DNA from: Streptomyces sp. V3I7
GTDB lineage: Bacteria > Actinomycetota > Actinomycetes > Streptomycetales > Streptomycetaceae
Reading direction: 5' to 3'
Length of the DNA stretch: 64,000 nt
Assembly (NCBI RefSeq): GCF_030817495.1
Contig: NZ_JAUSZK010000001.1
Span: 4,505,001-4,569,000, forward strand
Shown here: one piece after another, positions 63-27,311 of the stretch
Layout of the letters: every line of letters begins with the position of its first letter
Numbering within the stretch: position 1 is the stretch's first letter
Position numbers and translations under genes: made by a program
Notes under the pieces: model-generated
What the model was told of the DNA's origin: nothing
Database searches by the model: none
The model's input: the letters and a program-made list of their open reading frames with translations, nothing else

Positions 63-1148
63 GTGCACGCTTTCTCACACGGCACCACATCGACGCCCAC
101 GGCGGTGGCGGTACCGCCGTCGCTCGCACTTGAGGAGATCGAGGCGGCGTTTCCCCGGCAGCTGCATCCGTATTGGCCGCAGCTCCAGGAGAAGACGCGC
201 CTCTGGCTGCTCGAAAAACGGCTCATGCCCGCGGACAAGGTGGCGGAACATGCCGACGGCCTGCGCTACACGGACCTGATGGCCGGGTACTACCTCGGCG
301 CCCCCGACGAGGTGATGCAGGCGATCGGCGACTACAGCGCCTGGTTCTTCGTCTGGGACGACCGGCACGACCGCGACGTCGTGCACGGCCGCACCGCCGA
401 CTGGCAGCGGCTCAGGGCCCGGCTGCACACGGCACTTGACGCCCCCGGGCACCATCTGCACCACGCGGATCCCGTGGTGGCCGGTTTCGCGGACAGTGTG
501 CTGCGGCTGTACTCCTTCCTGCCGCACACCTGGAACGCCCGCTTCGCCCGCCACTTCCACGCGGTGATCGACGCCTACGACCGCGAGTTCCGCAACCGCA
601 CCGAGGGACGCGTGCCCGGGGTCGAGGAGTATCTCGCCCTGCGGCGGCTCACCTTCGCGCACTGGATATGGACGGATCTGCTGGAACCGAGCGCCGGCGT
701 CGAACTGCCCGACCAGGTGCGAAAACACCCGGCATTCCGGCGGGCGGCGTTACTGAGCCAGGAGTTCGCCGCCTGGTACAACGACCTGTGCTCACTTCCC
801 AAGGAAATAGCGGGAGATGAGGTCCACAACCTCGGAATCAGCCTCATCACCCATGAGGAAATGAATCTGGAAGAGGCGGTGGCGGACCTCCGGCGGCGCG
901 TCGATTCCTGCGTCACGGAATTCCTCGAAGTGGAAGGCGCGGTCCTGGAGTTCGCCGACCAGCTCGCCGACGGAACGACCCGCGGAAAGGAACTCGACGC
1001 CGCCGTCCGGACCTGCGTCGGCAATATGCGGAACTGGTTCAGTTCCGTCTACTGGTTCCACCACGAATCAGGCCGGTACCGGGTCGACAGCTGGGACGAC
1101 CGGTCCACGCCCCCGTACGTCAACAACCAAGCGGCAGGTGAGAAATGA
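63..1148 (+). CDS. epi-isozizaene synthase (sesquiterpene cyclase)
   Basis: Class I terpene cyclase that converts farnesyl diphosphate to (+)-epi-isozizaene, the first step to the sesquiterpene antibiotic albaflavenone. It has 361 residues, the length I know for the S. coelicolor enzyme. Both metal-binding motifs are visible: the aspartate-rich DDRHD at 99-103 and the NSE triad NDLCSLPKE at 240-248. The GTG start at 63 follows GAGAGGGG with a 7-nt gap. The stop overlaps the next gene's start (ATGA), so the P450 is translationally coupled. One TTA leucine codon (residue 230, bases 750-752) suggests dependence on the bldA tRNA. No prenyl diphosphate synthase is adjacent, so FPP must come from elsewhere. 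Confidence 0.95.
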
Positions 1149-2521
1149 CCGTCGAGTCCGTGAATCCCGAAACCGAGGCCCGCTCGGCGACGGAACTGTG
1201 TGAGCCGCCCCTCGCGGGCGGCGGGGTCCCGGTCCTCGGCCACGGCTGGAAGCTGGCCCGCGATCCGCTGGCCTTCCTGTGCCGACTGCGCGACCACGGC
1301 GACCTCGTACGCCTGAAACTCGGCCCGAAGACGGTGTACGCCGTCACCGCGCCCGCCCTCACCGGGGCTCTGGCGCTCAGCCCCGACTACATCGTCGCCG
1401 GCCCGCTCTGGGAGTCCCTGGAGAGCCTGCTCGGCAAGGAGGGCGTGGCCACCGCCAACGGCCCCCTGCACCGGCGCCAGCGGCGCACCATCCAGCCCGC
1501 CTTCCGGCTCGACGCGATCCCCGGGTACGGGCCGATCATGACCGAGGAGGCGCATGCGGTGGTGGAGCGCTGGCGCTCCGGCGAGGTGCTCGACGTGACC
1601 GCGGAGTCGTTCCGCGTGGCCGTCCGCGCCGCCGCCCGCTGCCTGATGCGCGGCAGCTACATGGACGCCCGCGCCGACCGTATCTGCGCCGCGCTCGCCA
1701 CCCTGTTCAGTGGCATGTACCAGCGCATGGTCGTCCCGCTCGGACCGCTTTACCGCATACCGGTGGCGAGCAATCGCGAATTCAACCGGGCCCTGGCCGA
1801 TTTGCACCTGCTGGTCGACGAGATCGTCGCCGAGCGCCGGGCGAGCGGTCAAAAACCGGACGATTTGCTGACGGCCTTGCTGGAAGCGAAGGACGAGAAT
1901 GGCGAGCCCATCGGGGAACAGGAGATCCACGACCAGGTCATCGCCATCCTCACCCCGGGAAGCGAAACCGTCGGCTCCATGGTCATGTCGCTGCTCCTCG
2001 TTCTCACCGAGCATCCGGATGTCGGTGACAAGATCCGCGACGAGGTGAAATCCGTCGTGGGTGACCGGCCGGTCGCATTCGAGGACGTCCGCAAGCTGAG
2101 GTACACCGCGAATGTCGTCGTCGAGACCATGCGGCTGTATCCCGCCGTCTGGATATTGACCCGCCGGACGGTGGCCGACACCGAGCTCGGCGGCTATCGC
2201 ATCCCGGCGGGCGCGGACGTCATCTACAGCCCCTATGCCCTCCAGCGCGACCCGCGTTCCTACGACCGGCACGAGGAGTTCGACCCGGAGCGCTGGCTCC
2301 CCGGGGGGTCCAAGGAGGTCCCGAAGCACGCGATGGCCCCGTTCGGCGTGGGCAACCGCAAGTGCCCGAGCGACCACTTCTCGATGGCCGAACTCACGCT
2401 GTTCACCGCGGCGATCGCCGCCGCCTACCGCTTCGAGCAGGCCCCCGGCTCCGACCCCAGGCCGCGCATCGGCATCACGCTGCGCCCGCGCCGCCTGATG
2501 GTGCGGGCCCTGCCCCGCTGA
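1145..2521 (+). CDS. cyp170A1: cytochrome P450 CYP170A1-type, albaflavenone synthase
   Basis: P450 of 458 residues that, in this family, oxidises epi-isozizaene via albaflavenol to albaflavenone. Seen in the sequence: an I-helix motif TPGSETV, the K-helix ETMR, and the haem-thiolate loop [11 protein letters not shown] near the C-terminus. It overlaps the cyclase by ATGA, which fixes the start at 1145. The S. coelicolor homologue is reported to have a second, moonlighting farnesene synthase activity; whether this copy does cannot be told here. The gene ends 21 bp from the stop of the convergent regulator gene, with only a short GCGC-arm hairpin between them. Confidence 0.93.
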
Positions 2522-22954: not shown

Positions 22955-23548
22955 TCAGTCCTTCAGGCGGTCCCTGATCCGCTCGCGCATCCCGGCCATC
23001 GTGAAGCCGCGCGGATCCACCTTCCCCGGCTGCCACTCCAGGTGCCCGATGACCGAACGCTCCGTCCACCCGTGATGGCGGCAGAGCGCGGCCGCGGCCT
23101 TCTCGATCGCCTCCAGCTGGACCTCGGGCCACGGGTCGTCGCCGTCGCCCAGGTTCTCGCACTCGAACCCGTAGAAGTACCGGTTCCCGTCGGTGTCGGC
23201 CGTGTTGTCCGGCGGCAGCCGCTTCTCGGCGATCACCGCGCGGAGCACGTCGGGGTCGCCGAGCCCGGCATGGTTGGCGCGGCCGTGGCCGACGAGGTGG
23301 ACCCGGCCGTCCTTGGTGATCACGCCGTGGCAGAGCGGGCCCGGCAGCTCCGGGGGGCCGCTGCGGCACAGGTCCACCGTCCGCCGGCTGCCCTGGGTGA
23401 CCGTGTGGTGGATCATCACGCCGTGCACGGGCCCCCACGGACCCTTGTGGTTGCGGTTGTGGCGCTCCCAGTCGCCGACCTCGACGACGGTGAGCCCCTC
23501 TTCCCTCAAGGCGTCCAGAAAAGCCCTCGCGGACATGGGTGAGGCCAT
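22955..23548 (-). CDS. N-acetylmuramoyl-L-alanine amidase (Amidase_2)
   Basis: Peptidoglycan amidase domain protein of 197 residues. Zinc ligands and fold motifs are seen: VHGVMIHHTVTQGS (first His), FYGFECENLGDGDDPWPE, and RSVIGHLEWQPGKVDPRGF (second His and Asp). No signal peptide is present, so export by another route, a cytoplasmic role in recycling, or a phage-derived origin are all possible. The start at 23548 gives the family's compact form; the open frame continues upstream without likeness. Confidence 0.88.
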   Translation of the reverse strand: MASPMSARAFLDALREEGLTVVEVGDWERHNRNHKGPWGPVHGVMIHHTVTQGSRRTVDLCRSGPPELPGPLCHGVITKDGRVHLVGHGRANHAGLGDPDVLRAVIAEKRLPPDNTADTDGNRYFYGFECENLGDGDDPWPEVQLEAIEKAAAALCRHHGWTERSVIGHLEWQPGKVDPRGFTMAGMRERIRDRLKD

Positions 23549-23848
23549 GGGTGCCTCCTTCGCTCCGTGTCCGGCGGCCACCGGGCGTGGCCGCCTCGTA
23601 TCGCTGCTTCTCCGAAAACGGACGTCCCGGACCACGCGTTCGTACAGCGTGCGAGCCGATCCGGACAACTTCCGGAGGTGGGATCCCCCGTCAAATCGCC
23701 GTCTTTTCCCACTAGTTCGATGATCCATTCCCGCTCGATCGGGTAATGGCAGCGACACGGTCCGTGATGGAAGCTGGTTGTGCGATTGATGCACCGGCGC
23801 AGTTCGGCTCCGGTGCACGACTGGGCATGACTGGGAGGGCAGTTCTCT
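23549..23848. other. divergent intergenic region, amidase / encapsulin
   Basis: Three hundred bases with no gene. It must hold both promoters. The encapsulin leader ends with GGGAGGGCAG 10 nt before its ATG. Lower-GC patches near 23640-23720 are the likely promoter zone, but I do not see a convincing -35/-10 pair. Confidence 0.5.
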
Positions 23849-25255
23849 ATGTCGGTAGGCGAAGAGGTCCGCACGGATCAGAGCAAGCCGCAGCAGTCTC
23901 TCGGTACGGCGGCAGCGCGGAACCTGGCCACCACCACCAAGTCCGTGCCTCAGATGCAGGAGATCAGCTCCCGCTGGCTGCTGCGCACGCTGCCATGGGT
24001 GAACGTCCAGGGCGGCACGTACCGGGTGAACCGGCGGCTGACCTACGCGGTCGGCGACGGCCGCATCACCTTCGTGAAGACCGGCGACCGCGTCGAGGTC
24101 ATCCCGGCGGAACTGGGCGAGCTGCCGGCCCTGCGCTCGTACGAGGACGAGGAGGTCCTCTCGGAGCTGGCCCAGCGCTGCCGCCAGCGCAACGTCGCCC
24201 CGGGCGAGGTGATCGCCTCGTTCGGCAGCCAGACCGACGATGTGTACCTGCTCGCGCACGGCAGGGTCGAGAAGATCGGCACCGGCCCGTACGGTGACGA
24301 CGCGGTCCTCGGAGTCCTCGCCGACGGCGCGTACTTCGGCGAGCAGGCGCTCCTCGACCCGGACGCCATCTGGGAGTACACGGCCCGCGCCGACACGGCC
24401 TGCACGATGCTGATCCTCTCCCGCCGGGACTTCGAGCAGGTCGCGGAGCGCGCCGACTCCCTGCGCGAGCACCTCCAGGAACTGCGCGCGCTCCCGGCGC
24501 AGCGCACCAACAAGTACGGCGAGAAGGAGGTCGACCTCGCCGCCGGCCACACCGGCGAGCCGGACATCCCGCACACCTTCGTCGACTACGAGGCGAGGCC
24601 CCGCGAGTACCAGCTGAGCATCGCCCAGACCGTGCTGCGCATCCACTCGCGCGTGGCCGACCTCTACAACCAGCCCATGAACCAGACCGAGCAGCAGCTG
24701 CGGCTCACCGTCGAGGCGTTGAAGGAACGCCAGGAGCACGAGCTCATCAACAACCGCGAGTTCGGGCTGCTGCACAACTGCGAGTACGACCAGCGGATCC
24801 AGCCCCACGACGGCGTGCCCAGCCCGGACGACATGGACGAGCTGCTCTGCCGACGGCGCGGCACCAAGCTGTTCCTCGCCCACCCGAAGGCGATCGCCGC
24901 GTTCGGCCGCGAGCTCAACAGCCGCGGACTCGTGCCGGAGACCGTCGACATCGGCGGCAATCGCATCCCCACCTGGCGCGGGGTGCCGATCTACCCGTGC
25001 AACAAGATCCCCGTCACCGAGGCGCGGACCACCTCGATCATCGCCATGCGTACCGGCGAGGAGGACCAGGGCGTCGTCGGGCTGCGGCAGTCCGGCATCC
25101 CGGACGAGATCGAACCGAGCCTTTCCGTGCGCTTCATGGGCATCAACGAGCAGGCCATCATCAAGTATCTCGTGACGGCCTACTATTCGGCGGCGGTCCT
25201 GGTGCCGGACGCGCTCGGCGTCCTGGAGAACGTCGAGATCGGCCGCTGGAGGTGA
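23849..25255 (+). CDS. Family 2B encapsulin shell protein with cyclic-nucleotide-binding-like domain (EshA-like)
   Basis: HK97-fold nanocompartment protein of 468 residues. Residues 1-95 form the N-terminal arm and first shell strands ([22 protein letters not shown]). About 105-215 is an inserted cyclic-nucleotide-binding-like domain ([31 protein letters not shown]). The rest is the shell P/A domain ([26 protein letters not shown] to [13 protein letters not shown] end). This is the architecture of Family 2B encapsulins and of Streptomyces EshA. In the phosphate-binding cassette the arginine expected after FGExAL is not at its usual place ([12 protein letters not shown]), so cAMP binding is doubtful. 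The polyprenyl synthase gene 112 bp downstream is the likely cargo. Confidence 0.9.
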
Positions 25256-25367
25256 CGTTTCCGCACGTCGCGGCCGTGTCCGCGCCCGTGGGCGTGGGTA
25301 AGCCCTCGTGGTACAAGCCCAGTTGGGCCGGACGCGCCATCGTCCGCGGCCTCCGCGAGGGAGAAGC

Positions 25368-26576
25368 ATGGCCGAGTTCATGACGGAGACGAAGCAGCGT
25401 CCCACCGGGTCGCTGGAGACACGTGAGCGACGAAGGCCCGCACCCGCCGCCGACGGGGCGGGCCCCCTCGAGGGCCCCCGCGACGGCTATCTCGACGGGT
25501 GCTTCGACGGGCAACCGGACCGGCAGCCCGAGGGGACCGGGGACGGGCAGGCCGACGGCCACGAGGCCGCGGTGATCCTGGAGCACGCGCGCACCCTGGT
25601 CGACCCGGGGCTGCGCGCCGCCCTGGAGTCGCTCCCTGATTCGATGCGCCGGGTCGGGCTCTACCACTTCGGGTGGGAGCACGCCGACGGCACACCGGCC
25701 GCGGGCAACGCGGGCAAGGCGATACGCCCGGCCCTGGCCCTCACGGCGGCCGCCGCGCTCGGCGGACCGACGGCCCGTACAGGGGCCGTACGGGCGGCGG
25801 CGGCCGTGGAGCTGGTGCACAACTTCACGCTGCTGCACGACGACGTGATGGACCGGGACACCTCCCGCAGGCACCGGCCCACGGCCTGGACCGTGTTCGG
25901 CGTCCCCGACGCGATCCTCGCCGGGGACGCCCTGCAGGCGCTGGCCCTGCGGCTGCTCGCCGAGGACCCGCACCCGGCGGCCGGGGCGGCCACCGCCCGG
26001 GTCGCGGACTGCGTCGTCGAGCTGTGCGCGGGCCAGCACACGGACACGGCCATGGAGCTGCGCGCCCCCGGCGAGGTCACCCTCGACGAGGTGCTCACCA
26101 TGGCCGAGGCCAAGACCGGCGCCCTGCTCGGCTGCGCCTGCGCCCTCGGCGCGCTGTACGCGGGCGCAGGGGAGGAGGAGGTGGCGGCGATGGACCGGTT
26201 CGGCCGTGAGGCCGGCCTCGCCTTCCAGCTGATCGACGACGTCATCGGCATATGGGGCGACCCGACCCGTACCGGCAAGCCGGCCGGTGCGGACCTCGCC
26301 GCCCGCAAGAAGTCGCTGCCGGTGGTGGCGGCCCTGGCCTCCGGCACCCCGGCGGCCGCGGAACTCGCCGAGCTGTACGCCCGGCCCTACGCGGAGGAGG
26401 ACCTGGAGAGGACCGTGCTCGCCGTGGAGCGTGCGGGCGGCCGGGACTGGGCGCAGGCCCAGGCGGCCGACCGGATGGCCACGGCCGTGCAGGAACTGGC
26501 CCGCGCGACCCCCGATCCGGAGCGGGCGGACGGTCTGCTCGCCCTGGCGGAGTTCGTCACGCGCCGCAGCGCCTGA
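25368..26576 (+). CDS. polyprenyl diphosphate synthase, likely encapsulin cargo
   Basis: Trans-isoprenyl diphosphate synthase of 402 residues. The first Asp-rich motif is DDVMD at 158-162 with Phe153 five residues ahead, and there is no two-residue insertion; the second is DDVIG at 290-294, with Gly in the last position. Residues 1-65 are a low-complexity Gly/Asp/Pro/Arg-rich extension (DGYLDGCFDGQPDRQPEG) not needed for catalysis and typical of the disordered cargo-loading regions of Family 2 encapsulin cargo. The ATG at 25368 follows GAGGGAGAAGC. Product chain length cannot be read with certainty. Co-directional with the shell gene; probably one operon. Confidence 0.88.
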   Translation: MAEFMTETKQRPTGSLETRERRRPAPAADGAGPLEGPRDGYLDGCFDGQPDRQPEGTGDGQADGHEAAVILEHARTLVDPGLRAALESLPDSMRRVGLYHFGWEHADGTPAAGNAGKAIRPALALTAAAALGGPTARTGAVRAAAAVELVHNFTLLHDDVMDRDTSRRHRPTAWTVFGVPDAILAGDALQALALRLLAEDPHPAAGAATARVADCVVELCAGQHTDTAMELRAPGEVTLDEVLTMAEAKTGALLGCACALGALYAGAGEEEVAAMDRFGREAGLAFQLIDDVIGIWGDPTRTGKPAGADLAARKKSLPVVAALASGTPAAAELAELYARPYAEEDLERTVLAVERAGGRDWAQAQAADRMATAVQELARATPDPERADGLLALAEFVTRRSA

Positions 26577-26715
26577 GCCCAGCCCACCGGCTCTCGGCCG
26601 ACGACGCCCGTCGTCGGCCGGCAGCCGCCGGTGTTCGTGTCCATGTCCATGTGCTGCGTGCTGCCCGTTCCTGGGCGGAGAGCGCCGGATCGCCGGCCGA
26701 CCTACCCTTGAAGAC

Positions 26716-26958
26716 ATGGACAGCCAGGCCGGCCGGGCCCGTCGGGACCAGCACGCCTGCCCCGTCTGCGGTCAGCCCGTGGACACGGTGGTGCGGCGGC
26801 ACAAGACGCTGGGCGCCTGGGTCCCGGTGTGGGGCGCGGGACCCTGCCACAACCCCGACTGCGCGGCGTCCGTGGAGTCCTCGGCCCCTGCTCCGGCCCC
26901 CGCCCCAGCTCCCGGGCCGCAGCAGCCGGCCCAGGAATCCGCGGAGGAGAACCCGTGA
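26716..26958 (+). CDS. small zinc-ribbon protein
   Basis: Eighty-residue protein with four metal-binding cysteines (CPVCGQPVD and CHNPDC) around a conserved-looking core VRRHKTLGAWVPVWGAGPC, followed by a proline/alanine tail. No known function. A -10-like TACCCT 7 nt before the ATG implies a leaderless transcript. Compositionally normal for the genome. Confidence 0.7.
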   Translation: MDSQAGRARRDQHACPVCGQPVDTVVRRHKTLGAWVPVWGAGPCHNPDCAASVESSAPAPAPAPAPGPQQPAQESAEENP

Positions 26959-26978
26959 GCGTCCCGTAGCGTGGCCGC

Positions 26979-27311
26979 ATGCCGAAACTCCCGTACATCT
27001 TCCACATCACGGAACGCGCCCTGTGGGACGCGGCGCGCGAGCACGGCGCCTACGAGATGTCGACCCGCGGCCGCACCCTTCAGGAGGAGGGCTTCGTCCA
27101 CTTCTCCACCCGCGACCAACTCCCGCGCGTGGCCGCCTTCCTGTACGGCTCCTACGACGGCCCGGACGAGCTGGTGGTGCTGAGCGTGGACCCGGCCCGG
27201 CTCGGTGTCCCCGTGAAGTACGAGTCCGTGGCACCGGGCGGCGAGGAGTTCCCGCACGTGTACGGCCCCGTCCCGGTCGACGCCGTGGTGGACGTACGGC
27301 CCTGGAGCTGA
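26979..27311 (+). CDS. DUF952 family protein
   Basis: Soluble 110-residue protein that matches DUF952: IFHITERALWDAAREHG at the start, EGFVHFSTRDQLPRVA, and the closing FPHVYGPVPVDAVVDVRPW. The family fold resembles ADP-ribosyl-type enzymes but no reaction is established. The gene begins 20 bp after the zinc-ribbon gene, and a TAGCGT about 6 nt before its ATG suggests its own leaderless start. Confidence 0.85.
   Translation: MPKLPYIFHITERALWDAAREHGAYEMSTRGRTLQEEGFVHFSTRDQLPRVAAFLYGSYDGPDELVVLSVDPARLGVPVKYESVAPGGEEFPHVYGPVPVDAVVDVRPWS

Follow-up and report, generated by a model that had tools for sequence, protein, structure and literature searches.

Genes for Family 2b encapsulin shells and for polyprenyl diphosphate synthases are known partners: in the accessible portion of one survey the synthase gene is the commonest neighbour of Family 2b shell genes (PMC8049743), and another, as far as its accessible text goes, counts 900 polyprenyl synthase encapsulin operons, 888 of them in Actinobacteria, whose synthases carry 50–100 disordered N-terminal residues and have no conserved targeting motif (PMC8346489, Andreas and Giessen 2021). 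The available part of a study of S. lydicus describes a two-component shell of the xylulose kinase type (9bix/9bje) of which one component, Sl-Enc1, cannot form shells alone; it also places the insertion domain above the two-fold pore, reports a lack of cyclic-nucleotide binding by this domain, and refers to TC/PT operons (PMC12407261). In S. coelicolor, according to the accessible text of each source, eshB (SCO5249), encoding a nucleotide-binding protein, rises during development (PMC3878966) and SCO5250 is named together with the MEP/DOXP pathway (PMC7494193); the two, adjacent by gene number, join a nucleotide-binding protein and an isoprenoid-pathway gene as the pair described here does. 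The searchable literature, with most subscription journals outside its scope, yielded no experimental study in which a polyprenyl synthase is shown inside a shell.

The window analysed here, a 64,000-nucleotide stretch of DNA from Streptomyces sp. V3I7, holds a well-formed member of this known system, the pairing itself being already described and common. Like the operons in the accessible part of PMC8346489, which are mostly from Actinobacteria, it combines a shell carrying a cNMP-like insert with an adjacent synthase whose N-terminus is disordered (Table 1). It shares fold family and cNMP-like insertion with the S. lydicus shell but has one shell gene in place of two components, and its RRR-type diagnostic motif 1 is that of Sl-Enc2 and not of the component reported, in the available part of PMC12407261, as unable to assemble alone.

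Table 1. Features of the shell–synthase cassette, in window positions
Feature	Position	Strand	Basis
Family 2B encapsulin shell protein, 468 aa	23849..25255	+	NF041163, PF19307, PF00027, 9bhu match
Shell N-arm, residues 17–31	23897..23941	+	S17, L18, T20, A22, A23 and R24 invariant in 26 aligned shells
Inserted cyclic-nucleotide-binding-like domain, residues 114–201	24188..24451	+	PF00027 61.5 bits (whole protein), cut-off 27.5
W175, opposite the cAMP-contact Arg of Crp	24371..24373	+	Shell alignments; alignment to the genome's own Crp-like protein
SrpI-like (HK97-type) shell domain, residues 216–466	24494..25246	+	PF19307 458.6 bits
Shell loop, residues 364–375, at the position of luminal diagnostic motif 2 (PMC12407261, accessible part)	24938..24973	+	GNRIPT counts
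112-bp intergenic gap with ribosome-binding-like GGGAGAAG ahead of the synthase start	25256..25367	+	
Encapsulin-associated isoprenyl diphosphate synthase, 402 aa, ATG at 25368	25368..26576	+	NF041169, PF00348, model pLDDT 84.9
Synthase N-terminal box MAEFMTETKQR	25368..25400	+	Recurrent M[AGTS]E[FLIS] start
Synthase extension preceding the fold, residues 1–65	25368..25562	+	pLDDT < 50 for residues 1–61
First aspartate-rich motif DDVMD, residues 158–162	25839..25853	+	D158, D159 and D162 invariant in 22 aligned synthases
Second aspartate-rich motif DDVIG, residues 290–294	26235..26249	+	D290, D291 and G294 invariant in 22 aligned synthases

The shell protein and its inserted domain

We compared the locus with 80 close relatives, the best 80 of 527 and all of them Streptomyces records, and with a class-wide draw of 296 genomes, 37 of which have a synthase and 78 a shell over cut-off. 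The positions of the two open reading frames and their 112-bp spacing on the + strand are as the first-pass annotation gave them, and a consensus scan of 23400–27000 found neither a promoter-like site nor a + strand terminator-like site.

The shell protein scores 775.2 bits against NF041163, the NCBI model for Family 2B encapsulin shells (cut-off 400), and its closest solved relative is 9bhu, named as the S. griseus Family 2B shell (phmmer E 7.8e-204; 54% identity over 410 alignment columns in Foldseek), both of which uphold the earlier assignment to Family 2B. 9bhu has the same architecture, but the cargo genes differ, the one in the window encoding a different enzyme; we take 9bhu to be the protein formerly called EshA, with 2-MIB synthase as its cargo. 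The order of Pfam domains, cNMP_binding (PF00027) and then SrpI-like (PF19307), indicates that the cNMP-like domain is an insertion. The AlphaFold model of the shell is weak (mean pLDDT 53.9; TMq 0.30 to its top Foldseek match, 9bhu), the cNMP-binding-like insert being its well-predicted portion, and an HK97 fold is predicted from sequence homology, not from the protein's own model. The same genome has a second intact Family 2B shell (L145:12069–13484; G000:C1, about 405 kb), which scores 748 bits and is 63% identical to the shell in the window; the 19-kb region around it contains no recognised cargo gene, as judged by eye from the starts of its genes.

The phosphate-contact Arg of the canonical cyclic-nucleotide-binding cassette is absent from the inserted domain, and in its place stands W175, which aligns with the Arg of GPRTAT in the same genome's Crp-like protein. 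A Trp is found opposite the cAMP-contact Arg in all 78 shells scored among the 80 loci (L006 has no shell and that of L060 is partial). Of the 26 shells in alignment A1, 25 have it and L134 has F; A1 comprises 22 of the 29 class-sample shell loci together with the window, the genome's second shell, and L062 and L070, two of the 80 loci. The earlier observation that the usual cAMP-contact arginine is missing thus holds, with a conserved Trp occupying the position. Because the phosphate-contact Arg is replaced in this way, cAMP sensing is predicted to be unlikely; a more plausible role, we infer, is the gating of flux in response to a different ligand, or a structural one.

The synthase and its pairing with the shell

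The product of the downstream gene scores 482.4 bits against NF041169 ('family 2 encapsulin cargo polyprenyl transferase'; cut-off 450), a model that starts at residue 68, and PF00348 (polyprenyl_synt) covers residues 114–347. Its predicted structure (mean pLDDT 84.9) is confident over residues 62–398, which form isoprenyl synthase helices, and the nearest structures are 3nf2, followed by the archaeal GGPP synthases 1wy0 and 5jfq. Family scores and fold match alike support its identification as an isoprenyl/polyprenyl diphosphate synthase; the more specific label of GGPP synthase IdsB (NF045549) was rejected at 363.1 bits against a cut-off of 475. Both aspartate-rich catalytic motifs are intact (alignment A2, 22 synthases in all), and the best reading of the sequence is a short-chain (C15–C20) enzyme, the product length being a prediction; Phe at position –5 of the first aspartate motif would, as a general rule, go with C20 chain length. 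3nf2, a standalone S. coelicolor polyprenyl synthetase, has the same fold and 44% identity (Foldseek) and resembles the standalone paralogues, which occupy a separate branch of the tree described below, from which 3nf2 itself was left out. There are three other PF00348 proteins in the genome, which could make the enzyme redundant.

A quick tree of 62 rows, with SH-aLRT as the sole measure of support, sets the shell-adjacent synthases apart from nine standalone paralogues. On the shell-adjacent side there are also five synthases that have no adjacent shell (L110, L151–L153 and L163), of which L163 has a long branch and an unsure placement. The Streptomyces synthases form two groups, one of 29 rows that includes the window (support 96) and mostly has long extensions and one of nine rows (support 92) with mostly short tails as called.

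In 79 of the 80 loci the synthase gene follows immediately behind the shell gene on the same strand; the contig of the exception, L006, ends at the synthase. Across the class the two are adjacent, by their listed positions, in 33 of the 37 genomes with a synthase over cut-off (L147 and L149 were scored adjacent from partial shells at contig ends), leaving four, L110 and L151–L153, that lack an adjacent shell. Within Streptomyces the pairing is common: of 28 same-genus genomes, 23 hold a synthase over cut-off, and all 23, the window's own included, have it beside a shell. The upstream neighbours are often retained, an amidase in 67, a deaminase-like gene in 73 and an antiporter in 68 of the 80 loci; short contigs score as misses in these counts. 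The region downstream is variable, and an acetyltransferase gene found there in 47 of the 80 loci is absent from the window. By synteny, the pair presumably corresponds to SCO5249–SCO5250 of S. coelicolor. The cargo-type pairing proposed by the first-pass annotation is supported by this adjacency and by the named families, which together make the synthase a putative cargo of the shell.

A different reading of the pairing is joint regulation without co-assembly, with the synthase in the cytosol and the shell carrying another cargo or acting alone. It could draw on the four synthases that are not shell-adjacent, on the second intact shell with no recognised cargo gene nearby and on the failure to find a universal loading motif among the compared extensions (see below), yet the pairing persists in nearly all of the close loci although the downstream flank changes, and it is retained across genera; we regard this reading as improbable.

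No terpene cyclase was found in the 80 loci, within at most 6 kb on each side, by tblastn with three cyclase queries from the same genome. A terpene cyclase gene and, behind it, a putative P450 gene lie at window positions 63–2521, 21 kb upstream of the cassette, and the two are presumably of the epi-isozizaene synthase/CYP170 type. Elsewhere in the genome, a 2-MIB-synthase-like gene (L174:7108–8261; G000:C1, about 269 kb) scores 423 bits against a cut-off of 400, and just upstream of it lies a shell-like remnant of 26 residues in another frame; this locus has apparently lost its shell. A geosmin-synthase-like gene sits beside the short-tail synthase of three shell-adjacent pairs from other genera (L114, L115 and L149), and its presence there hints at FPP as the product of those synthases.

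These cyclases raise the prospect of a two-step compartment, in which the shell would house the synthase together with a terpene cyclase encoded in trans. The three geosmin-synthase-like neighbours and the TC/PT operons in the available part of PMC12407261 would fit such an arrangement, as would the geosmin-synthase-like and 2-MIB-synthase-like genes elsewhere in this genome, the second of which has only a shell remnant beside it. However, the geosmin-synthase-like gene falls under the encapsulin-cargo cut-off (1136 bits against 1200), and none of the three queries matched in the close loci, so we hold out little expectation of an in-trans partner.

The N-terminal extension and cargo loading

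As the first-pass annotation described, some 65 Gly/Asp/Pro/Arg-rich residues lie outside the catalytic fold: residues 1–65 include 11 G, 7 D, 7 P and 7 R, and residues 1–61, with pLDDT below 50, are predicted to be disordered, which matches the published figure of 50–100 residues. Its further suggestion, that this extension is what loads the enzyme, finds no support as a general rule. To be independent of the chosen start codons, which were picked by ribosome-binding-like sequence, we measured how many residues fit between the stop codon of the shell gene and the catalytic fold. The room is 103 residues in the window and fewer than 25 in 11 of the 33 shell-adjacent class-sample synthases, the window counted among the 33 (L093, L097, L098, L099, L104, L112, L114, L115, L147, L148 and L149), so these 11 depart from the N-termini described in the accessible part of PMC8346489. 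With a third of the sample lacking the room, an extension of 50 residues cannot be needed by every synthase, provided that all are cargo. N-terminal tails of 23–35 residues, as called, also occur on standalone paralogues (L155, L156 and L158–L161). The extensions differ greatly in sequence and in length, the longest being called at 203 residues; the called starts gave negative lengths in three rows, are wrong in L112, L157, L162 and L164 and are probably over-long in L095.

Motif counts were made on extensions of 20–120 residues only, with 13 chosen class rows, and removal of redundancy took the set from 80 to 66. The full terpene-cyclase tag GPxG[LIV]GT occurs in none of the 66 and was rejected as a tag common to the synthases. 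A shorter form, GP[TSIAV]G, is over-represented (14/66 against a shuffled mean of 2.8), [LIV]GT occurs in 8/66 (shuffled mean 2.9, highest shuffle 9), and PTG, also in 8/66, shows no excess over a shuffled mean of 5.5; the window's own PTGSLETRERR resembles the cyclase tag at chance level only (L.T...R in 1/66, mean 0.5). Since some extensions share pieces of the cyclase tag in this way, the extension may yet contribute to loading. ER[RH] (16/66) and DG[HQ]E (38/66) are both above shuffles and confounded by ancestry.

The first residues of the synthase form a recurrent box, EFMTETxQ, with FMT in 23 of the 66 extensions and 40 of 81 rows beginning with M[AGTS]E[FLIS], and the 80 loci are enriched for it because MAEFMTET was among the search peptides. 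In a codon test on 49 rows the third bases of codons 4–7 are about as conserved as the first two, while codons 3 and 8 lean to conservation at the protein level. This outcome is compatible with conservation of either the protein or the DNA, and we do not take the box for an established protein motif; constraint on the DNA, common descent or the initiation of translation could explain it. Among the extensions compared, no loading motif common to all shell-adjacent synthases was found.

In the strongest form of the earlier proposal the whole disordered extension would be the cargo-loading domain, as in Family 2B terpene cyclases. The predicted disorder of residues 1–61, the view in the accessible part of PMC8346489, the box recurrent in the window's clade and the excess of GP[TSIAV]G all lend it some weight, but they are set against the synthases that have no room for such a domain, the missing full tag, the high variability of the extension and the tails of standalone paralogues, and on balance we consider it less likely than not. 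For the long extension, the role of a spacer is more probable than that of a universal signal. Tandem repeats occur in some of these spacers, of 30/60 bp at L028:5723–5930 and of 36 bp at L075:6113–6269, and the extension in the window has a weak 12-bp repeat only.

The shell offers two further observations. Its N-arm pattern S-L-x-T-x-A-A-R, invariant in the 26 aligned shells, resembles the GPTGLGTSAAR-type tags of terpene cyclases. Cyclases bearing such tags lie beside shells in L114, L150 and L154 and are found also in L179–L238, taken irrespective of shell adjacency; an LGTxxxR-type match is present in 12 of 30 geosmin-synthase-like frames (3 of the 30 over the cargo cut-off), and 20 of 30 2-MIB-synthase-like frames carry a P[TSA]G[LIV]GT core (one of these 30, L223, is a shell frame and not a cyclase). 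The cargo tag of terpene cyclases may mimic the shell arm. The second observation concerns the loop GNRIPT, which is present in all 15 class-sample shells whose synthase sits in the window's tree group and in one of the 18 remaining (L091, outside the window's synthase clade); among the 80 loci, 77 of the 78 shells read have GNRIPT or a one-letter variant. The loop tracks the synthase clade, a pattern confounded with ancestry, and is suggestive only as a receptor for the synthase.

A probable stand-alone cassette

The explanation that we judge probable is a stand-alone Family 2B cassette, in which a self-assembling shell would enclose a C15–C20 synthase held by an N-terminal stub or a folded face. 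By analogy with its solved homologues, the shell protein is expected to assemble into an icosahedral cage, and the conserved pairing and the named families point to the downstream synthase as its cargo. Retention of the synthase would most likely depend on a short N-terminal stub or on a surface of its folded domain, and in this Streptomyces clade a variable Gly/Asp/Pro-rich spacer, with tandem repeats in some species, lies between N-terminus and fold. The inserted domain would sit above the two-fold pore, as published for relatives, where it might gate flux for a ligand other than cAMP or serve a structural purpose. As no cyclase was found beside the cassette, the product probably feeds the isoprenoid supply at large, perhaps during development, and not a neighbouring cyclase.

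More speculative is a mode of loading distinct from the full GPxGLGT tag of the Family 2B terpene cyclases, in which the N-terminal box or a folded face docks on the co-changing GNRIPT luminal loop, the extension is a tether grown by repeats, and the cassette makes a one-enzyme isoprenoid diphosphate compartment whose pore domain answers a non-cAMP ligand at the Trp; we put this forward tentatively and think it unlikely.

For the question of what the pore domain binds, the conserved Trp that has taken the place of the phosphate-contact residue is a specific position to probe, and the natural short-tail and long-tail synthases, each with its own shell, offer a comparison already at hand for locating the loading signal.
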